A DNA stretch of 64,000 nucleotides from Sporosarcina psychrophila. GTDB lineage: Bacteria; Bacillota; Bacilli; Bacillales_A; Planococcaceae. The notes beneath the pieces were generated by a model, which was not told the DNA's origin, did not search any database, and saw only the letters and a program-made list of their open reading frames with translations. Positions 3,337 to 33,915 of this stretch are shown piece by piece. The DNA lies in assembly GCF_001590685.1 (NCBI RefSeq), contig NZ_CP014616.1, positions 2,913,001-2,977,000 on the forward strand. The letters run 5' to 3'. Position numbers and translations under genes: made by a program. How positions within the stretch are numbered: the first letter of the stretch is position 1; every line of letters starts with the position of its first letter.

Positions 3337-3638
3337 TAGGCATCCTCACCAATCATTAATGTAACAAGATCACCCGCAAACCCCATCAAATCTTTGCCTG
3401 ATGCCTTTCCTTCAGCTGTGCGCAAACCTGCCTGTAACGCTTCTAGATTGTCATACTTCATCTCACATGTGAGGTAATATTTCCCTTCACCTCCCATTGG
3501 AGATCCTGATATTTTTGTTACCTTCATTTCACGGAGACCAGGGATTTTTGCTGTTAGCGGTGAATGTACATTGAAATAATGATCATCAAAAGCCTCTTTG
3601 TTTTCTGGGTGTTTGTACAAAGCAATTAGTTTAGCCAT
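3336..3638 (-). CDS. EthD-family small dimeric alpha/beta-barrel protein
   Basis: 100 aa with the EthD pattern: an N-terminal beta strand (KLIALY), a conserved HYFNVHSPL segment (residues 20-28) and a C-terminal strand. EthD-fold proteins form dimeric ferredoxin-like barrels, and some take part in degradation pathways without a fixed chemistry. It lies between paaD and paaF, fused to the operon by a one-base stop/start overlap with paaF and 17 bp from paaD. That makes a role in handling a phenylacetyl-CoA epoxide or oxepin intermediate plausible but unproven. GAGGAG precedes ATG 3638. Confidence 0.8.
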   Translation of the reverse strand: MAKLIALYKHPENKEAFDDHYFNVHSPLTAKIPGLREMKVTKISGSPMGGEGKYYLTCEMKYDNLEALQAGLRTAEGKASGKDLMGFAGDLVTLMIGEDA

Positions 3639-3655
3639 TTTTTCTTCTCCTCACT

Positions 3656-4156
3656 TTACATTAATGTAGACACGGGTTTCATTGCCTCAAATACGTTTTT
3701 ACAGCTTTTGCAATACAAAATACTTCTGCAGGCCGTCGGTCCAAAAATATTTTCCATTGATACATAGCCAGATCCGCAATAGGCACAATCCACATGCCAT
3801 GATCCATCTTCCTCAAAATAGCGGGGCGGTGGAGCAATCCCAAATTTTTTCAGATTCACATGACCTTGTTCCGTTATACGGTCTGATGTCCATGGCGGAT
3901 GAAAGACGAATTCTACTTCAATCGTTTCAACTTCCGGTAGTTTTTTCACAGCATTTACTGTATTCGTTTTAATAAATTCGAGTGCCGGACATCCCAAAAA
4001 AGTCGGTAGAAGTGTGATTTTGACGTTATTTCCTTCGGTTGTAACTTCGCCCACCATTCCAAGATCAATAATACTCACCGAATCAATTTCCGGATCTTTC
4101 ACATTCATAAGTACTTCAAAAATACGCTCAGTTGAAACATCTACAGAAGCAGTCAT
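3656..4156 (-). CDS. paaD: PaaD, metal-sulfur cluster assembly-type subunit of the phenylacetyl-CoA epoxidase operon
   Basis: 166 aa from ATG 4156. I chose this over GTG 4165 because the GTG lies inside the AGAGGTG ribosome binding site. The N-terminal two thirds is a MIP18/SufT-type domain with the conserved VKDPEIDSVSIIDLG stretch and the LGCPA cysteine motif (Cys about 58). The C-terminus is a zinc-ribbon-like segment with two CxxC pairs (CAYC, CKSC) plus an intervening cysteine. PaaD proteins are needed for maturation of the epoxidase, probably its Fe-S reductase. Only 26 bp separates it from paaC. Confidence 0.88.
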   Translation of the reverse strand: MTASVDVSTERIFEVLMNVKDPEIDSVSIIDLGMVGEVTTEGNNVKITLLPTFLGCPALEFIKTNTVNAVKKLPEVETIEVEFVFHPPWTSDRITEQGHVNLKKFGIAPPPRYFEEDGSWHVDCAYCGSGYVSMENIFGPTACRSILYCKSCKNVFEAMKPVSTLM

Positions 4157-4182
4157 ATTATTCACCTCTTTCCTGGTACCGT

Positions 4183-4995
4183 TTACCAGACAGCTGCCGG
4201 GTCAAGTTTGTAAACTTCGGAAAGCGTGCCGAGTGCTTCATCTAAGTCTTTTGTGTGCTCACCGTTTCGTCCGTTCATCACGGGATGATTCGGGATCAAC
4301 GGTACTTCCATTTGGAGGGTTTCGAACACTGGATTGATGATAGCTTGCCATTGTTTCTTCATTTCTTCCTCACTGTCTATTAAGTTACTGCTTTCAATCT
4401 TTTGTTTCTGATTTCCAAAAGAAAATACATCTCCAAAATCATTCAAAACAAGCGTAATTGCATCATTCATTTTCTTTTTTGCCACATCTGTAGAATTCAT
4501 TAACTGCTTAAACCACGTTTCCCAGTGCAACTTGTGATAATAAAGTTCCATTTTCACTTTTATCGCCACTTCAGCAATAGGTTTGTATGAGCTTTCACAT
4601 AACGAATCCATTTTTACCTTTTTCGCTTGTATATAAAAATAACTCCTTACGACTTGATAGGCCCAGTCATAATTGGGTGTTTCCATATAATAACCTTCGC
4701 CGTTCACCCGTTCCGTCAAAATGCTGTTCTTTCTTTCATCTGTCGGACGTAAATGGGCCAAGTCATCCGCTTTTCCAGCTCCAAGCTCTTCAAGTAATTT
4801 GTAGTACATCGCCGCATGCCCCATACTGTCTTGGCTAATGGATGAGGAAGCTACGTCTTCTTCAATGTGAGGAGCGAGTCCGAGCCATTCAGATCCGCGG
4901 AATGCGTACAGAAAATCATCATCTGCTAATTGGAACAACAAACTAGTGATTGCTTCTTTATATTCCATGCTCATGCCATTGTCTGTTATGCTCAT
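4183..4995 (-). CDS. paaC: PaaC, structural subunit of 1,2-phenylacetyl-CoA epoxidase
   Basis: 270 aa from ATG 4995, preceded by GGGGAGGGGAG and overlapping the paaB stop by four bases (ATGA). A longer reading to 5013 would place the start inside the binding site. The protein is a ferritin-like helical bundle containing FQLADDDFLYAFRGSEWLG near the N-terminus and ISQDSMGHAAMYY. PaaC forms the stable PaaAC core with PaaA and lacks a full diiron site, acting as a scaffold. Confidence 0.92.
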   Translation of the reverse strand: MSITDNGMSMEYKEAITSLLFQLADDDFLYAFRGSEWLGLAPHIEEDVASSSISQDSMGHAAMYYKLLEELGAGKADDLAHLRPTDERKNSILTERVNGEGYYMETPNYDWAYQVVRSYFYIQAKKVKMDSLCESSYKPIAEVAIKVKMELYYHKLHWETWFKQLMNSTDVAKKKMNDAITLVLNDFGDVFSFGNQKQKIESSNLIDSEEEMKKQWQAIINPVFETLQMEVPLIPNHPVMNGRNGEHTKDLDEALGTLSEVYKLDPAAVW

Positions 4996-5339
4996 TTCCG
5001 CTCCCCTCCCCATGACAAAATTTCTTTTTCATCAAGCACTTGCTGTTCATATTGACGCCATTTTTTCTTTAAGTAACCATAGCCTTTTGTCGTCCTGTAC
5101 TCTTTATTGTCTAGCCTGGTGAGCGTCATCTTCTCTTCGGCATTCATTTTCCTAACATTCTTTCGATTTATAATCCAAATGTCTGCAACTGGTTCACGGC
5201 GCATGAAATTTTCCTGTGCCAAAATAAGTGCCATATCTTCATTTGGAGCCAGTAAGCTGAATTGGTGTTGGAATGCCGAGCTCGGTGTCCGCTTACTGAA
5301 CACTTCATATTCTTGATAAAATGTTTTTTCTCCAGTCAT
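4992..5339 (-). CDS. paaB: PaaB subunit of 1,2-phenylacetyl-CoA epoxidase
   Basis: 115 aa from ATG 5339 (AAGGAG 10 nt before). An upstream ATG at 5357 overlaps the paaA stop and lacks a site. Conserved PaaB elements are YEVFSKRTPSSAFQHQFSL and the ADIWIINR segment. PaaB bridges PaaAC heterodimers and is required for electron transfer. At the 3' end it overlaps paaC by 4 bp. Confidence 0.92.
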   Translation of the reverse strand: MTGEKTFYQEYEVFSKRTPSSAFQHQFSLLAPNEDMALILAQENFMRREPVADIWIINRKNVRKMNAEEKMTLTRLDNKEYRTTKGYGYLKKKWRQYEQQVLDEKEILSWGGERK

Positions 5340-5356
5340 TTTACTGACTCCTTCCA

Positions 5357-6307
5357 TTAATTAACGACTGCACTTAAAGCATCTCGCACCCATGTATTAT
5401 TTTCATAAGATGTACGACGCAGGTTCAGGCGTGCCTGAGAACGAGGTCCTTCATTTCTAATATTTTTCTTGAATTCATTCCAATCCGGTTGTTTGTACGT
5501 CCATATTTTGCTTTCAGCATCGAATTTTATGGTCGGATCTGGGATTGTTAGACCAAGAGATAAAATACGCGGGATATATTTATCAAAAAAGATTTGCCTG
5601 AACTCTTCGTTTGTTTTTGTCCGGATTTTATATTTAATAGTCAAATCTTGTTTCGAAGAACCTGTTGTTTCTTTACTCGCAGGTCCGAAGAACATTAACA
5701 GAGATTCCCACCAATAATTGATTGATTCCTGAATCATCGATTTTTGATCATTTGTACCTTCCGCAAGTGCCATAATAATAGATTCACCATGCTGTGCATG
5801 AAACACTTCTTCAGCGCAAATACGCTGTAACGCTCTCCCGTAAGGCCCATAAGAAGCCCCAAGCATATTTGTTTGTGTAATAATTGCAGCCCCATCAACG
5901 AGCCAACCGATTATTCCAGCATCTGCCCATGTAGTTGTTTTCATGTGAAATACATTATGAAATTTCAAGTCTCCATTGAATAAGTCCTGCATTAAATCTC
6001 CGCGATTCTTGCCATATGGTTTAAGTAAATCTTCAGTTACGCGAAGAAGCAGTTGACCGTGGCCCATTTCGTCTTGCACCTTGGCCATAATGCCTAACTT
6101 ACGAGAAAGGGATGGGGCTTTTGGTACCCATTCTTTCTCTGGGAGAGCCCCCATTATTTCGCTCATTCCATGCATGGAAATCAATTTAATCAATGTCAGC
6201 CTATATTCTTCAGGCATCCAATCATCGGCTTCAATTTTGTCACCTGCTTCAATCCTCTGCATAAAGTGAGCTAACTTTTCTACTTCCGAATTGTATAAAC
6301 CCGTCAT
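5357..6307 (-). CDS. paaA: PaaA, catalytic diiron subunit of 1,2-phenylacetyl-CoA epoxidase
   Basis: 316 aa, the normal length. Two ExxH iron-binding motifs are visible, EMGH (in KVQDEMGHGQLLLR) and EVFHAQHG, together with the acidic ligands expected of this ferritin-like oxygenase. With PaaB and PaaC it epoxidises the aromatic ring of phenylacetyl-CoA using O2 and reducing equivalents. It is the first gene of the operon and starts at ATG 6307 behind AGGGGG. A PaaE reductase is not found in the window, so electrons must come from a partner encoded elsewhere or beyond the left edge. Confidence 0.95.
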   Translation of the reverse strand: MTGLYNSEVEKLAHFMQRIEAGDKIEADDWMPEEYRLTLIKLISMHGMSEIMGALPEKEWVPKAPSLSRKLGIMAKVQDEMGHGQLLLRVTEDLLKPYGKNRGDLMQDLFNGDLKFHNVFHMKTTTWADAGIIGWLVDGAAIITQTNMLGASYGPYGRALQRICAEEVFHAQHGESIIMALAEGTNDQKSMIQESINYWWESLLMFFGPASKETTGSSKQDLTIKYKIRTKTNEEFRQIFFDKYIPRILSLGLTIPDPTIKFDAESKIWTYKQPDWNEFKKNIRNEGPRSQARLNLRRTSYENNTWVRDALSAVVN

Positions 6308-6432
6308 TTCACAGCCCCCTAGTTTAAGGTATGTGTTTCCGACTAAACATATAACACTTACATAACGTTAATCTAAAACTCAGTTATATTTATAGACATA
6401 CCAATCCGATAATACCGTGTGCCTTTTCCATA

Positions 6433-6572
6433 AACAGTCGCTTACTTAATACTTGGTCGCCCACTTTAATAGAATCTGTCGGACATCCGACTTATGCATC
6501 TTCTAAATCTTCAAGAAGATGTTCAGGTACTTCTGCTGTTCCTTCATTTCTATACTTTGAATACCTTCTGGG
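6433..6572 (-). pseudogene. remnant of a 4Fe-4S ferredoxin C-terminal half
   Basis: Reading the complement in the frame containing position 6545 gives EGTAEVPEHLLEDLEDA, a TAA stop at 6494-6492, then VGCPTDSIKVGDQ. This matches the end of single-cluster Bacillus-type ferredoxins (NEGxxEVPExLLEDLxDAxxGCPTDSIKV), including the last cluster cysteine in GCPTDSIKV. No start, no N-terminal CxxCxxC and an internal stop show that it is broken. It lies on the same strand as paaA and immediately upstream of it. Confidence 0.6.
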
Positions 6573-6587
6573 ACAATTCCCAAAAAC

Positions 6588-6617
6588 AAAAAAACACCGG
6601 CAAAATTCTGCCGATGT
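6588..6617 (-). terminator. terminator of the S8 protease gene
   Basis: Arms 6594-6602 and 6609-6617 (ACACCGGCA / TGCCGATGT, one G-T type pair) with a 6-nt loop. On the minus strand the stem is followed by a run of seven T. It lies 19 bp after the protease stop codon. Confidence 0.88.
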
Positions 6618-6635
6618 CCATTTTTAATACGTAAA

Positions 6636-9600
6636 TCAATTGCTCATGCTATTTTTCTCGATGCTTTCAATGTCTTGAATGACCTCACCATTTTCCACTT
6701 TTTCTCCATTCTCCATGTTTATAAACAACTTGCCTTCCGCCATTTTACGCGCTTCGTTTTTGAAGTTGTCAATAACTTTTGCTTCAATACGCGCTCCGTC
6801 AGCAGTGACACCAAACGGTACTGTCCAGTAACCTACATAGTGACCTGGTGATGTCTCACTAAATGGAAGTTCGGTGGCATTTGTCACTTCGTTGCCTACA
6901 TTTGTCAGTGGCATGTGGATTACAAAACTAGCTTTTAGTCCTGGGGCACTGTCAAATTCTATTTTTACACTTTTGCCTGTTGTTAAGTAGACATCATTAG
7001 TTGGTGTTAAATTTTCGATTGATGGTGCATTATATTGAGCTGTAACTACCACCGTCTTCGAAGTTTGGTTATTCGCTTTATCACTTGCAACAACCGTTAT
7101 TTCGTTTTCACCATTATCAAGCAAAATACGTTTGGAATAGTTTCCATTTACGACTTCCGCATTTTGGCCGTTTACTTTTACCCAATCAAGGTTAGCATCA
7201 GAAACCGTCCCTTCAACCATAACCGTTTCACGATTCGATTTATCACCGTTTTTCGGGTTATCGATTGTCAGTTCAGGGTTTTCAGTATCTAATGTCACTG
7301 TAACTGGAGCAGATTCGCCTGTCACTTTGCCATTAAGCGTGGAAACTGCCTTGAACTCATTTACTCCTTCTGCAAGCTCATTTTTGATTGTAAATTTGCC
7401 GTCTTCTCCAACCACTGCCGTACCTGCATCTTCTCCGTTGTTTTTCAGCTGGATTGTTGTCGTCGGAGATGCTGTCCCTTCGATCGTAATACTTGATTCA
7501 TTTGTCGTGAAGTTCTCTGCAGGTGAAGTAATAATTGGTGCATGGACTTCATAGCTGACACGTGCACGAATCATGTAATTCCCTTCCGCCGCAGGTGCTG
7601 CTGACCACGCGCCCGATACATATTGATAACTTCTTCCCGCGTTCGTTCCAGTTTCATCTGTCGCGAGACCAGGTGAATTTGGACTTGGATCTTTCTGGAT
7701 GTAAACCATGTAAAAGTCACCGCTGACAACTATGTTGTGCTCAGTTAAATCTACAACTGTCCACTCTCCGTTACGCAGAGCCTGTGCATCGATTGGTCCT
7801 GCAAGTTTCTTGCCAGGAGTTCCGTCAGCACCCGTTGCATCCCATACTTCTACTGCAAAAGCCGTCCCTCCTGGAACTGGCCATTCCGTATCCCAGAAGC
7901 GGAGTACGCCGTCTGTGACAATTCCGGATTCTTTACCTTCTGGAAGAGACATTTTCACTCCCCAGCCATTACCTGCATCGTAGAATGCACGCGCATTCTC
8001 GCCTGTGCCGTCGTCATACCCAATTTCGCCGCCTGGATATGTGTAAAATGGTTCTAGTGCGAAATCTTTTTCAGTCGTGCCGTCGCCAATTGTGATAGCC
8101 GCTTCTTGACTATGGTAGCCACGTGCAATCACCTTCAACGTGTAGTCGCCTTCATAAGCGGTGATGGAATAATTCCCATTTCCATCTGTTTCGACAGGTG
8201 TAATGTTTGCATCTTCGATTAGCAGCAATGTTGCTCCACCAATTGCTTCACCTGTTGACTGATCAGTAATTGTACCTCTTACCGTGGATTGTGTAATTTC
8301 ATTTAGCGTGAAATTAACTTTCGTTGAACTGTCTGCTTCGATTGTTACGGATTGCTCTTCAGATTGGAATCCGTATGCTTCTGCTTTCGCCGTAAATGTT
8401 CCTGCTCCATGCGTCAGTGAATATTTTCCATCAGCAGGGTTCGAATAGACCGAACGCCCTGTTTCAAGCACACTGACTTGTGCACTTAAAGGAAGCAGTG
8501 TAGGGTTTGCCTTTTCGTCTTGGACTGGCGGTTGTTCTTTCTTAGGAACTACCGGGTGAATTTTTGTCGGATCGATAGGTTCTTTGAATGCATCTTTTTC
8601 TTTTTCTTTAATAATACCGAGGTCTTTACCAGATTCGGTTTTAATAGCTTCAAGATTTTTACCGCTATTTTTCTCATTGCTTCCGTTACTATCTTGTGTA
8701 GTTCCTTTTTGCATTTTGCCCGTTTTTGAAGTAGTTGTCAGTGCTACATCATCAATATACCAGCCATCTTTTACAACGCTAGCGTCGGAAAATGCATTGA
8801 AACCGATGTAAACACGTTGACCGCTATATTCCGACAAGTCAACTTCACCGTCAATCCAACCGTCCGATTGACCTTGAACCATGAGTAGTTGGGTCCATTC
8901 CACCTGATCTATGGAAATGAATACATGACCGTAATCCCATGCTCTGCCGGATGTAGATTGCTCGAAGTTATGCCATTGTTTAAATTGCAAGAAGGAATCC
9001 CCTTCTGGCAAGTCAACTGGAGGCATGACAAGTGTTGCATTCATATTAGTTTCATATGTGCCTGTAAGATTTGTCGCATATACTTTTTCACCTGAAGAGG
9101 CGCTATTTGGGCCAGATGTTGGTACGCCCCACTCCCAGCTGTTCTTCTCGCCAAATGAAGTCCAACCAATCGGCGTTGTTTCAAAGTCTTCTGAGAAGCC
9201 GATTGTGATGCCCGGCTTCACTTGAATCGTGTATTCTTCACTTGTCACTTCATTATTCCCAAAATCATTGATTGTCCATTTGTAAGTGAATGTATTGCCT
9301 GCGATACTTTCGCCCGCAATCGTTGCTCCAAATTCACCTGACTGGTAATTACCCGACTTACGGCTAGCTTCCACCGCTTGCCACTTGTTAGCTGCGTCCT
9401 TATAGTTCAATGTGACAGACGCGATACTAATATTATCTGTCGCTTGAACCCTCAAATCTAAATCCATTCCCGCGTATGTTTCTGCAGGCGCATCATGCTT
9501 GTATGTTGGTGCTTCATGATCGTCACCTTGTTTTGAAACTTGACCTTCCATTTTCCCAAGGCCACTAGCGATTGATGAAACAGCTTCGTAAGCATCGACA

Positions 9601-30265: not shown

Positions 30266-30432
30266 CGGTAAATATAGGTATTCATTTATTCAACATATTA
30301 TAGAAGGATCCATCTAAGAGCTTTTCATATTTCTCTACTAATAGAAGGAAAGCAAACATACACTTTAGTAACTACGATTAGGGGCAGGCTAATATAGCTG
30401 GATAACAAAGGGTGGAGGCGTCTTATTCATTG

Positions 30433-30696
30433 ATGGAAAAAGCACTTATTTTCATAATTTTATTGAGAATTTTATCTGGAAGTATTGATATTACAGCAGC
30501 AATGTTTATGTTTAAGTTTAATGATTTAGAAAAAGCCTTTTATATCAACACCCTACTGGCCTTAGTAGGTCCATGTATTTTAATTATTACGACAGGAATA
30601 GCATTGGTTGGACTAACTGAAAAAATTTCATTCGTAAGGATGATTTGTCTCTTTGGCGGAATTTTACTCATCCTCATCAGCTTAAAATCTAAATAA
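30433..30696 (+). CDS. yqhV: YqhV-family membrane protein (DUF2619)
   Basis: 87 aa with three hydrophobic segments. The motif FxIxLLRxLSGSIDITAAMFMFKFNDLEKAxYINTLLALVGP matches B. subtilis YqhV, which lies upstream of the spoIIIA operon there but not here. Function unknown, probably sporulation- or membrane-related. Start uncertain: GGAGG at 30414-30418 is 14 nt from ATG 30433, 11 nt from TTG 30430, while a GTG at 30412 overlaps the site. No spoIII genes follow; the next gene is the PTS IIA. Confidence 0.75.
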   Translation: MEKALIFIILLRILSGSIDITAAMFMFKFNDLEKAFYINTLLALVGPCILIITTGIALVGLTEKISFVRMICLFGGILLILISLKSK

Positions 30697-30829
30697 GAAA
30701 AGCATAAGGCGTCTTCGGTGAATAAACCGATAGAACTATAAGCTTGCAGCCTTGTAAAAAAAAGTTTATTTTTCTATTGCATTATAATAAATTAAATGTT
30801 ATTATCCGAATAGAAGTTTAATAGCGGAT
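30697..30829 (+). promoter_or_regulatory. presumed promoter region of the PTS operon
   Basis: TATAAT occurs at 30783-30788, about 40 bp ahead of the RAT element, and is the best -10 candidate. No good -35 hexamer lies 16-18 bp upstream (the nearest TTGTAA is 25 bp away), so the promoter may need an activator or the true one may be elsewhere in this AT-rich stretch. Confidence 0.35.
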
Positions 30830-30911
30830 CACATGTTACTGACTCGATCAGGCATGGTGGTAAACTTAGAAGGTTTTTTTAAAATCTTCTTTTTTACCCC
30901 ATGCCTTTTCT
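30830..30911 (+). promoter_or_regulatory. RAT antiterminator element overlapping a leader terminator
   Basis: RAT-like element 30830-30859: CACATG, TTACTGA, loop CTCGA, TCAGG, CATGGTG, which folds on itself (CAC/GTG, ATG/CAT, CTGA/TCAG). Its 3' half GGCATGGTGG also pairs with the downstream CCCCATGCC (30897-30905) to form a long terminator whose inner arms are AGAAG/CTTCT, followed by TTTTCTT. The two structures are mutually exclusive, the standard arrangement for BglG-family antiterminators. It resembles from memory the ptsG RAT bound by GlcT in B. subtilis. Confidence 0.82.
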
Positions 30912-30989
30912 TGTTTGCTCGTTGTGATTGCACAATATAAATCGAGGGATACGAGCCCTACATCACCGACAATAAAGGAGTCCACAGAC

Positions 30990-31472
30990 ATGCTATCAAA
31001 ATTATTCAAGAAGAGTAAATTACAGATATTCGCACCTATTAATGGAGAAATAATCCCACTTGACCAAGTTCCGGACCCAGTCTTTAGCCAAAAAATGTTG
31101 GGCGAAGGAGTCGCTATCATGCCAAAGAAAGGTAGTATTCATGCTCCTATAGATGGAACTGTCATCTTAGTATCCGATACAAAGCACGCCATTGGCCTCC
31201 GTTCAAGTGATGGGACAGAAATTCTTATTCACATCGGATTGGAAACGGTTTCATTAAAAGGAAATGGTTTTACAGTATTAGTCAAAGCAGGTGACGCAGT
31301 TTCGGTCGGTCAATCACTTATTGAAGTAGATTGGGATTATATTAGCGAACATGCAAAAAGCATTATAACACCCATCGTGATTACAAATAGTGCGGAACGG
31401 AATGTAAAGTGCGAAGTTGCAAAAGAAGGCATCATGGGAGAAACAGTGTTAATGACAATTTCCACTAAGTAA
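30990..31472 (+). CDS. crr: PTS sugar enzyme IIA, glucose family (Crr-like)
   Basis: 160 aa from ATG 30990, with AAAGGAG 9 nt ahead; the open frame reaches further upstream but without a site and into the leader. Conserved IIA-Glc motifs: FAPINGEIIPLDQVPDPVFS, HAPIDGTV, and TEILIHIGLETV with the phosphorylated His81 (partner His66). It accepts phosphate from HPr and passes it to the IIB domain. First gene of the RAT-controlled operon; it supplies the IIA function missing from the IICB protein two genes on. Confidence 0.92.
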   Translation: MLSKLFKKSKLQIFAPINGEIIPLDQVPDPVFSQKMLGEGVAIMPKKGSIHAPIDGTVILVSDTKHAIGLRSSDGTEILIHIGLETVSLKGNGFTVLVKAGDAVSVGQSLIEVDWDYISEHAKSIITPIVITNSAERNVKCEVAKEGIMGETVLMTISTK

Positions 31473-31512
31473 TGCATGAGTATATCCAGTGAAAAGAAGG
31501 CGGTGACTTTCG

Positions 31513-32331
31513 ATGAAAATAACAAAGATTCTCAATAATAACGCTGTCGTCGTACTAGATGGCCAGCATGAGAAGATTGCTGTTGGCACCGGGATTGCTT
31601 TTAATAAGAAACGCAACGACATTGTGAATGTCGAAAAAATCGAAAAGTTATTTGTTATGAGGGAGAATGACAAGTTACAGCAGCTTCTAAGTCGAATTCC
31701 AGAAGAGCATTTCACCATCTCAGAAGAAATTATTACATACGCAGAGGCGTATATGGGCACGAAATTAAACGAGCATATTCACATCGTCCTTACTGATCAT
31801 CTGTCATTTGCAATCGAAAGAATTAGAGATGGTATTCATCTAAATAATAAGTTATTGCATGAAATAAAAATACTTTATAGAAGAGAATTTGAAATTGGGC
31901 TTTGGGCAATCCAACATATAAAAGAAAGATGTCAAGTGGACATGCCTGAGGATGAAGCCGCTTATATTGCACTTCATATCCATACCATGAAACCGCAAGG
32001 AGGTGATTTGCATCAAACCCTAAGACAAACGGCGATTATTAGAGACATGGTCCAAACAATCAAGGAACACTTAATGATCACGATTGAAGAGGACGATATT
32101 TCTTATCATCGCCTAATTACGCATCTTCGCTCCACCCTAACAAGAATGAATCAGTATGGGCTTCACACGATGGATGAGGAAATGTTGGTCATGATTAAAA
32201 AGAAGTTTCCTCTTTCATATAATTGTGCAACCGAGGTTGCAAAGGAATTAGTTGTGTTACATGCAGTCGAGCTGCATGAACAAGAGTTGGGCTATATCGC
32301 ACTTCATATTGAACGATTAAGAAAGCAATAA
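31513..32331 (+). CDS. BglG/LicT/GlcT-family transcriptional antiterminator
   Basis: 272 aa. RNA-binding CAT domain at 1-55 (KITKILNNNAVVVLDG, VGTGIAFNKK), PRD1 (about 65-170) with His96 and His155/157, and PRD2 (about 175-272) with His204 and His265. These histidines are where HPr and IIB phosphorylate such proteins to switch them on or off. It should bind the RAT at 30830 and so control its own operon. By its first residues it looks closer to LicT/SacT than to B. subtilis GlcT, hence no symbol. 40 bp after crr, 75 bp before the IICB gene. Confidence 0.9.
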   Translation: MKITKILNNNAVVVLDGQHEKIAVGTGIAFNKKRNDIVNVEKIEKLFVMRENDKLQQLLSRIPEEHFTISEEIITYAEAYMGTKLNEHIHIVLTDHLSFAIERIRDGIHLNNKLLHEIKILYRREFEIGLWAIQHIKERCQVDMPEDEAAYIALHIHTMKPQGGDLHQTLRQTAIIRDMVQTIKEHLMITIEEDDISYHRLITHLRSTLTRMNQYGLHTMDEEMLVMIKKKFPLSYNCATEVAKELVVLHAVELHEQELGYIALHIERLRKQ

Positions 32332-32406
32332 AGTCAACATGAGTCGTCATCATATATATTCTTCCGAACAAACTATCTAAAAACTATGAATAGGGGTGAG
32401 TTTAAC

Positions 32407-33867
32407 ATGATGAAATACCTTCAAAAGCTTGGCCGTTCTTTGATGTTACCTGTAGCTGTATTACCTGCTGCGGCAATTTTAATGGGGATCGGGTATTGGA
32501 TTGACCATGATGGTTGGGGTTCAGGAAACGTATTAGCTGCCTTCTTAATCAAAGCCGGGTCTTCGATTCTCGACAGCCAAAATATGTCTATTCTTTTCGC
32601 AGTCGGGGTAGCACTGGGTATGTCCAAAGATAAGGATGGCTCTGCCGCGTTAAGTGGTTTGGTCGCTTTCCTCGTAACTACGACATTGCTATCAACAGAT
32701 TCGGTAGCTATGTTACTTAGCACGGATATTGCTAATGTAAATCCTGCATTTGAAAAAATTGAAAACCAATTTATCGGGATATTGTCTGGAATTATCGCAT
32801 CCATTATGTACAATCGTTTTAGTCATGTACAGTTACCGGATGCACTTGCCTTCTTTAGTGGAAAACGCTTAGTTCCCATTATGACAGCTGCCGCTATGTT
32901 AGTCGCTTCAGCAGCATTATTCTTTATCTGGCCTATTGTATACACAGCTTTAGTTAGTTTTGGTGAAGGTATTAGTGGATTAGGTGCTACTGGTGCAGGA
33001 TTATACGGCTTCTTTAACCGACTATTGATCCCTACCGGATTACACCATGCATTGAACTCCGTATTTTGGTTTGATGTTGCTGGTATTAATGACATTGGTA
33101 ACTTCTGGGCTGGAACAGGCACGAAGGGTGTTACCGGTATGTATCAGGCAGGTTTCTTCCCAATTATGATGTTTGGGCTACCCGCTGCAGCACTTGCAAT
33201 GTATCATACAGCTAAAACAAAAAGAAAAAAACAAGCAGCATCTTTGATGTTAGCAGCAGGTTTCGCTGCATTCTTTACAGGTGTTACAGAACCACTTGAA
33301 TTTGCATTTATGTTCTTGGCACCAGCTCTTTATGTTGTGCATGCTGCGTTAACAGGTTTATCGTTGTTTATTGCCGCTACTTTCCACTGGACAGCAGGAT
33401 TTGGATTTAGTGCTGGTTTTGTCGATTTAGTCTTGAGTTTCAGATTACCACTTGCTAACCAACCCTATATGTTAATCGTTCAAGGTTTAGTCTTTGCAGT
33501 CATTTACTACTTCCTATTCCGTTTCTTAATCGTGAAATTCAACTTAAAAACACCAGGTAGAGAAGACGATGAGGATGTAGCAGATGAGGATGTAGACGGA
33601 GTAGCAAGTACTACAACAGGTAATAAATTCTCAGGCATGGCCGCTACGATTTTTGATGGCTTAGGCGGAGACGCTAACGTAACTTCCGTTGACTACTGTG
33701 CAACACGCTTACGTGTAGAAGTAAAAGATATGAATGCGGTCAACCAAAAGAAAATTAAAGATACAGGCGTACCAGGGATAAACGTGGTAGGGCCACAAAG
33801 TATTCAAGTTATTGTTGGCACAAATGTACAATTCGTTGCGGATGAAATCGAAAAAATCCGCAAATGA
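32407..33867 (+). CDS. PTS enzyme IICB, glucose/N-acetylglucosamine family (NagE-like)
   Basis: 486 aa from ATG 32407, 8 nt after AGGGGTG (the ATG at 32386 precedes that site). IIC domain of eight to ten membrane segments (about 1-370), with LMLPVAVLPAAAILMGIG, FFSGKRLVPI, LLIPTGLHHALN and GVTEPLEF. A linker rich in Asp/Glu, then a IIB domain with phosphorylated Cys431 in DYCATRLRVEV. NLKTPGRED and the FSGKR and IPTGLH contexts resemble NagE/NagP (N-acetylglucosamine) more than PtsG. No IIA domain is fused; crr supplies it. Substrate: GlcNAc or glucose. Confidence 0.88.
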   Translation: MMKYLQKLGRSLMLPVAVLPAAAILMGIGYWIDHDGWGSGNVLAAFLIKAGSSILDSQNMSILFAVGVALGMSKDKDGSAALSGLVAFLVTTTLLSTDSVAMLLSTDIANVNPAFEKIENQFIGILSGIIASIMYNRFSHVQLPDALAFFSGKRLVPIMTAAAMLVASAALFFIWPIVYTALVSFGEGISGLGATGAGLYGFFNRLLIPTGLHHALNSVFWFDVAGINDIGNFWAGTGTKGVTGMYQAGFFPIMMFGLPAAALAMYHTAKTKRKKQAASLMLAAGFAAFFTGVTEPLEFAFMFLAPALYVVHAALTGLSLFIAATFHWTAGFGFSAGFVDLVLSFRLPLANQPYMLIVQGLVFAVIYYFLFRFLIVKFNLKTPGREDDEDVADEDVDGVASTTTGNKFSGMAATIFDGLGGDANVTSVDYCATRLRVEVKDMNAVNQKKIKDTGVPGINVVGPQSIQVIVGTNVQFVADEIEKIRK

Positions 33868-33886
33868 TAACATGCGATTATGAATG

Positions 33887-33915
33887 GACCAGGTCTCTGC
33901 AGACCTGGTCTTTTT
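33887..33915 (+). terminator. terminator of the PTS operon
   Basis: Arms 33887-33896 and 33901-33910 (GACCAGGTCT / AGACCTGGTC), 4-nt loop, TTTTT directly after. It lies 20 bp beyond the IICB stop codon. Confidence 0.95.

Follow-up and report, generated by a model that had tools for sequence, protein, structure and literature searches.

In the GlcT-ptsGHI system of Bacillus subtilis, the antiterminator gene glcT lies upstream of its RAT, the antiterminator hairpin. In Enterococcus faecalis, the Kd for binding of the antiterminator NagY to its own leader is 4.18 nM; nagE expression rises 16.6-fold with N-acetylglucosamine (GlcNAc) and becomes constitutive once the leader region is deleted (PMC9981650). 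Published work lists polysaccharide lyases (PL8) and enzymes of GH20 and GH18 as NagY targets, gives the enterococcal RAT as CATG...GGCATGG with a two-nucleotide bulge, and describes SacY as acting also on sacB, a gene for a secreted enzyme (PMC9981650, PMC12502629).

A three-gene PTS operon of Sporosarcina psychrophila, located within the 64,000-nucleotide stretch of DNA analysed here (the window), is very probably governed by a NagY-type RAT/terminator switch that responds to GlcNAc, is read by the antiterminator encoded by the second gene of the operon and so would feed itself (Table 1). The sequence itself shows a pair of competing folds that are conserved, the order of the genes, the families of their proteins, the co-occurrence of RAT and antiterminator, and no consensus promoter found between the terminator and the regulator gene. 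The switch is of an ordinary, known kind, with a predicted regulon in Bacillaceae and Exiguobacterium.

Table 1. Features of the leader and operon in the window (all on the forward strand)
Feature	Position	Strand	Basis
Probable promoter, TTGCAT, 17 nt, extended -10 TGtTATTAT	30777..30805	+	sequence; predicted start ~30812
RAT (antiterminator hairpin), NagY type	30826..30861	+	fold, alignment of 41 distinct RATs, pair counts, model R1 60.5 bits
Intrinsic terminator overlapping the RAT 3' half	30851..30909, T-run 30906-30909	+	folds, pair counts
PTS enzyme IIA, glucose-family type (earlier 'crr')	30990..31472	+	PF00358 177 bits; TIGR00830 above cut-off
BglG/SacY-family antiterminator, NagY group: CAT, PRD1, PRD2	31513..32331	+	PF03123, two PF00874 stretches, alignment, tree
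PTS enzyme IICB, N-acetylglucosamine type (nagP-like)	32386..33867	+	TIGR01998 656 bits vs cut-off 553.2
Operon-end terminator	33886..33911	+	11 pairs, 6 G-C, T-rich tail

The leader (30826-30911) accommodates two mutually exclusive hairpins that have the stretch 30851-30861 in common. A preliminary description of this DNA had noted a self-complementary element at 30830-30859 whose 3' half is also the 5' arm of a terminator; folding confirms this arrangement and sets the extent of the element at 30828-30861. Folded alone (-9.5 kcal/mol), it contains a one-nucleotide and a two-nucleotide bulge: above the lower stem (AUCAC/GUGGU) a bulged G leads to AUGU/GCAU, after which come the two-nucleotide bulge, the pairing CUGA/UCAG and a loop of five nucleotides. 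The terminator hairpin (30851-30905) reaches -28.1 kcal/mol, with a z-score of -7.55 and 0/200 dinucleotide shuffles as good, and has TTTT behind it at 30906-30909; taken together, 30826-30911 adopts the terminator fold at -31.6 kcal/mol (z -6.63, 0/200 shuffles as good), so the terminator goes beyond chance. An energy difference between the two folds, on which the preliminary description had made the switch depend, amounts to 18.6 kcal/mol. The leader terminator escaped a simple scan for terminators, apparently because its stem is interrupted, and no Rfam family reached its gathering score anywhere in the window, sub-threshold matches near the element being at chance level.

By itself the energy of the RAT is unremarkable (z -1.14, 31/200 shuffles as good), and the case for it is one of conservation and motif rather than energy. 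Its core motif has a single match in the 64-kb window against 0.02 expected, and among 41 distinct sequences its pairing is retained in 94.1% of cells, compared with at most 48.4% when the pairing is slid. Covariation was given up as the main support: the RAT barely varies and therefore yields little signal, with 4 cells changed on both sides and five measures reached by 7-33 of 500 shuffles, and in the terminator 6 of 10 pairs are invariant and 351 of 500 shuffles reach the observed count of pairs in which both sides have changed.

The wide margin of stability of the terminator over a RAT of ordinary energy might suggest that the hairpin merely terminates or attenuates upstream transcription and that the RAT-like fold has no role, a reading made highly implausible by the conservation across Bacillaceae and Exiguobacterium of RAT letters that the terminator does not need (30828-30850), and by the recurrence of the same pair of structures ahead of unrelated genes. 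The terminator is the more stable fold in all 67 ortholog loci with a RAT (from the best 80 of 186 relatives plus further sets), and the whole leader folds into it in 66.

As a sequence type, the RAT joins a GlcT-like core to a NagY-like foot. All 41 distinct RATs read ATG...GGCAT, followed in 40 by GG (ATG...GGCATGG; L064 is the exception, with GGCATAG), and that of the window bears the NagY-type marks, CATG...GGCATGG together with a two-nucleotide bulge; the minimum-energy folds of the foot differ between species. RATs of the GlcT type, collected with a looser pattern beside GlcT-like genes, have the foot ACGTG...GGCATGAG in ten cases out of ten; the gene behind each resembles ptsG in its first letters, and five of the ten proteins beside them were confirmed as GlcT by model or tree. 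The 20-letter pattern GTTACTGAnnCGATCAGGCA occurs with zero mismatches in both RATs of the genome, that of the nag operon and that of GlcT. R1, a covariance model made from the 41 distinct RATs, finds in this genome one full-length site, the window's own RAT, which is among the sequences used to build it (60.5 bits), and the core of the GlcT RAT (28.7 bits, positions 9-29); R1 found no further full-length RAT there, so a multi-target regulon like that of E. faecalis was not encountered in this genome.

The core, exact in both RATs and sufficient for R1 to reach the GlcT one, speaks for the idea that the genome's GlcT reads the switch, alone or with the operon's antiterminator, and that the operon responds to glucose; a genome that retains RAT and IIA without the antiterminator (G009, below) points the same way. 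This is quite unlikely, considering that the feet of the two hairpin types differ consistently, that RAT and window-type antiterminator occur together, and that the operon encodes a dedicated antiterminator. Within a set of 61 genomes, all 8 with a window-type antiterminator have a full-length RAT of at least 45 bits; among the 53 without one, a RAT above 30 bits was found in only two, G009 and G054, under stricter filters by which weak matches are lost. In G009 (L133, reverse 4303-5269), the RAT and IIA are kept, the antiterminator and most of IICB are gone, and a fragment that matches the C-terminal hundred residues of IICB follows IIA. In G054 (L134, reverse 3372-7031), a RAT of 36.5 bits precedes IIA, an antiterminator of 50% identity and, ahead of these two, a gene that by eye is ptsI-like, which places general PTS genes behind such a switch.

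Matches to PF00358, CAT_RBD, PRD and PTS_EIIC/EIIB uphold the earlier assignment of the three genes, separated by gaps of 40 nt (IIA/antiterminator) and 54 nt (antiterminator/IICB), to an IIA, a BglG-type antiterminator composed of a CAT domain and two PRDs, and an IICB. In the antiterminator, which was also matched by sequence to the LicT, SacY and GlcT structures, CAT_RBD (PF03123, 65.8 bits) is followed by two PF00874 (PRD) stretches, all above cut-off; the IICB consists of PTS_EIIC and EIIB domains. Histidines 96, 155, 204 and 265 of the antiterminator, in PRD columns, are invariant in 17 aligned sequences including the window's, and by analogy with LicT we take H96, H155, H204 and H265 to have a regulatory role. 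Elsewhere in the window, a DUF2619 gene (30412-30696) lies just 5' of the leader and is apparently unrelated to it, and a GlpP-type antiterminator gene (PF04309, 27703-28272, minus strand) adjoins genes resembling glpD, glpF and glpK, forming a second, unrelated antitermination system.

The window antiterminator scores below both the GlcT model NF047357 (232.7 versus 320) and the LicT model NF046042 (256.1 versus 300); the genome's other antiterminator, 35% identical to it, passes the GlcT model (381.7 versus 320) and belongs to a locus ordered glcT, GlcT-type RAT, ptsG-like gene, so that the contrast originally drawn with a glcT ahead of its switch holds within the same genome. A tree of 38 antiterminators unites the window protein with 14 relatives and two NagY-like proteins (99/97), with GlcT standing apart (100/99); by model score and tree, the window antiterminator is not GlcT. 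The NagY-like proteins, on which the enterococcal comparison is based and which come from two genomes picked by the published E. faecalis RAT (28/28 and 27/28 letters), show 40-44% identity and have a long branch in the tree; a wider tree, which carries a long-branch warning, puts the outgroup within the window group at weak support. The best named match of the window antiterminator is 96% identical, which fits a Sporosarcina.

As for the transporter, IICB failed the glucose models, the best of which gave 410 bits against a cut-off of 591.8. The preliminary description's 'autoregulated PTS operon' thus stands as regards autoregulation, supported by sequence, and does not stand in its 'crr' label and glucose comparison, the IICB being of GlcNAc type and the antiterminator NagY-like; sequence evidence favors a GlcNAc/NagY-like system and not a glucose/GlcT one. 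The genome has nagA, nagB and a GntR-type gene (the last recognized by eye) side by side. The operon could be as described and yet take its signal from glucose, glucosamine or a disaccharide, given that IICB family names are model-based and that the next best model is a glucose one, even if below its cut-off. Such a signal is unlikely: IICB passes TIGR01998, enterococcal NagY responds to GlcNAc (PMC9981650), and the RATs of relatives mostly precede enzymes acting on amino-sugar glycans.

Conservation of the arrangement was assessed in 70 ortholog loci of 62-100% identity, drawn from 80 named loci, the best of 186 relatives, plus two further sets. L041 and L042, which duplicate the contigs of L008 and L009, were taken out, leaving 68 loci; an antisense hit in L049 was also discarded before counting, and L104-L120, relatives of 47-55% identity, were kept out. 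RAT and terminator are present in 67 of these 68 loci; in the remaining one, L090, the RAT lies outside the fetched stretch, ahead of IIA and IICB and about 9 kb from the antiterminator (L175). In that genome, a large GH84 gene that has no separate RAT stands between IICB and the antiterminator (L175, 3087-8984).

The order RAT-IIA-antiterminator-IICB is found in 45 of the 68 loci (from the best 80 of 186 relatives plus further sets, as are the counts that follow), RAT-antiterminator-IICB in 4, whose loci showed no IIA, and RAT-IIA-IICB-antiterminator in 1; in 17 the antiterminator is convergent to RAT-IIA-IICB and lacks a RAT of its own within the locus, and 1 (L090) has no RAT in the locus. 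The antiterminator is therefore behind the RAT in 49 of 68 loci. The 17 convergent loci (L063, L066, L068-L071, L073, L074, L076-L078, L080, L082, L083, L088, L095 and L103) form one clade, mostly of Neobacillus (93/92, wider tree), in which autoregulation has apparently been lost. Among the more distant L104-L120, 15 of 17 loci carry bgl-type RATs, and no window-type RAT was found at E-values up to 0.01; six of them (L104, L106, L107, L112, L115 and L119; 48-54% identity) have a bgl-type RAT before IIA and a second one after the antiterminator. The record L043, labelled Arthrobacter beigongshangensis (Actinomycetota), has an antiterminator that falls among Sporosarcina in the tree and is probably mislabelled or contaminated.

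The probable promoter of the operon may have counterparts in the relatives: in 58 of 69 loci (from the best 80 of 186 relatives plus further sets), a number that includes two duplicates and near relatives and for which no null was computed, the best-scoring promoter-like pair ends 16-22 nt upstream of the RAT block. A strict consensus scan did not report the promoter at 30777..30805. On the plus strand, from 30911 to 31513, the consensus scan found no promoter-like site, which is weak evidence in view of its also missing the likely upstream promoter; on this basis the antiterminator gene is probably dependent on the switch. The absence of a strong promoter at 30911-30990, on which the earlier reading had relied, is in keeping with that scan, and the gene order likewise places the regulator behind its own switch as first proposed.

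Matches to a NagR/DasR-type operator consensus (up to three mismatches) number 16 in the window against 18.1 expected, with none in the leader; two lie inside coding genes of the operon, and the nagA locus has a two-mismatch site. NagR control of the operon was dropped, there being no operator match in the leader and a count close to expectation. Catabolite-response (cre) sites, also searched with a consensus, number 105 in the window against 76.6 expected, with none in the leader and a one-mismatch match at 31240-31253 within the IIA gene.

By homology with described systems, we infer start point, binding, sugar signal, phosphate logic and feedback as follows. Transcription would start near 30812 and by default stop at the terminator ending at 30909. 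Uptake of GlcNAc would drain phosphate from the IIA/IICB pair, upon which the antiterminator would lose an inhibitory phosphate on PRD1 and dimerize; its CAT domain would then bind the emerging RAT and hold it, blocking the terminator and allowing IIA, antiterminator and IICB to be made. With the regulator gene behind its own switch, induction would feed itself and depend on some basal readthrough.

In addition to the nag operons, RAT-terminators recognized by R1 precede other genes in the relatives. A first set of 39 genomes with the antiterminator contains 19 full-length or near-full-length sites beyond the nag operons, whose first gene (the first open frame of at least 100 codons on the same strand, overlapping smaller frames being removed) belongs to GH84 in 8 cases, GH20 in 4, GH3 in 4 and DUF218 in 3. 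The prediction of these four classes was noted in the same step as the search of the remaining 19 genomes, which gave 24 further sites, 18 of them as predicted (GH84 7, GH20 4, GH3 5, DUF218 2); one PL8 and one GH101 gene fit the idea and were absent from the prior prediction. Four sites do not fit, namely a TPR-containing remnant in L203, a nuclease-like gene followed by DUF218 in L213 and L214, and the geneless L192. The RAT of L192 (62.8 bits, with terminator) has no gene on its strand for 2.4 kb and is antisense to an apparent two-component pair. As most of its genomes fall in the same groups as those of the first set, the second set is a replication and not an independent sample.

Together with one GH3 site in G051, this makes 44 further RAT-terminators (L135, L172-L174 and L176-L215): 25 ahead of GH84, GH20, PL8 or GH101 genes, 10 ahead of GH3, 5 ahead of DUF218 and 4 ahead of none of these. 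They are not 44 independent events, since many represent one locus in sister species, chiefly the GH3 locus of Exiguobacterium; 27 core-only R1 matches (positions 9-29) and the GH84 gene of L175 were left out. G475 has nine RAT sites besides its nag operon. Judged by eye from their first letters, the enzymes of the predicted regulon are apparently secreted. GH3 is a family of mixed activities, and from a motif observed in the L135 protein its members here are presumed to be NagZ-like. L191 encodes F5/8, Big_2 and Lyase_8 domains, a set resembling that given for HylA, a known NagY target. In the window's own genome GH20 was sought and is probably absent; the search for GH84 there, whose control matched nowhere, carries no weight as to its absence.

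The parallel between this predicted regulon and that of enterococcal NagY supports GlcNAc as the signal. We consider it reasonably likely that the switch of the window is part of a large undescribed NagY regulon of Bacillaceae and Exiguobacterium, in which one GlcNAc-sensing antiterminator controls its own transporter operon and GH84, GH20, GH3, PL8, GH101 and DUF218 genes, with up to nine further sites per genome, and in which one clade, mostly Neobacillus, has moved the regulator outside the loop. Titles and abstract beginnings of the open-access literature yielded the enterococcal work and nothing on a NagY-type system in Bacillaceae.

The enterococcal system would thereby extend to Bacillaceae and Exiguobacterium; for B. 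subtilis, the control described for uptake of GlcNAc is the NagR repressor. The RAT model offers a cheap finder of enzymes that scavenge amino sugars, and links genes of no known function, DUF218 among them, to a signal. Relatives with and without the regulator behind the switch allow a direct test of what autoregulation does to induction; if the regulon reading is true, nature offers the same circuit in both forms, the one without autoregulation in the mostly-Neobacillus clade. RNA specificity in turn has a natural test in the two RATs of this genome, which share an identical core and probably answer to two antiterminators.

Among known systems, GlcT of this same genome shares with the window an identical RAT core and the protein family of the antiterminator, but its gene precedes the RAT, the hairpin has a different foot, the protein belongs to a separate clade and the transporter is of glucose type. 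The RAT of SacY is of the GGATTG...GGCAAAACC type, unlike that of the window, and bgl differs in responding to beta-glucosides, in having the antiterminator as its first gene and in carrying a second RAT behind it. The sacXY operon of B. subtilis resembles the window in having the transporter gene first, the antiterminator second and a single RAT (PMC9981650, PMC12502629), and differs in its sugar, sucrose, and in that SacX is a IIBC; in the bgl operon of Escherichia coli, as in the window, the antiterminator, BglG, controls its own operon (PMC12502629). Autoregulation as such is hence not unusual, a regulator behind its own switch being described for sacXY, bgl and nagYE (PMC9981650, PMC12502629). 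NagP of B. subtilis is a transporter of the same kind, an IICB for GlcNAc, whose gene is repressed by the GntR-family NagR with no antitermination (PMC3648570, PMC6148471). In nagY-nagE of E. faecalis, a BglG/SacY antiterminator lies, as in the window, behind its own RAT-terminator and adjoins a GlcNAc PTS gene, and the regulon, as in the relatives, takes in glycan-degrading enzymes. Compared with it, the window has a separate IIA gene in first position and an IICB in place of the enterococcal IICBA, the upper part of its RAT is GlcT-like, and its genome carries no second full-length RAT.
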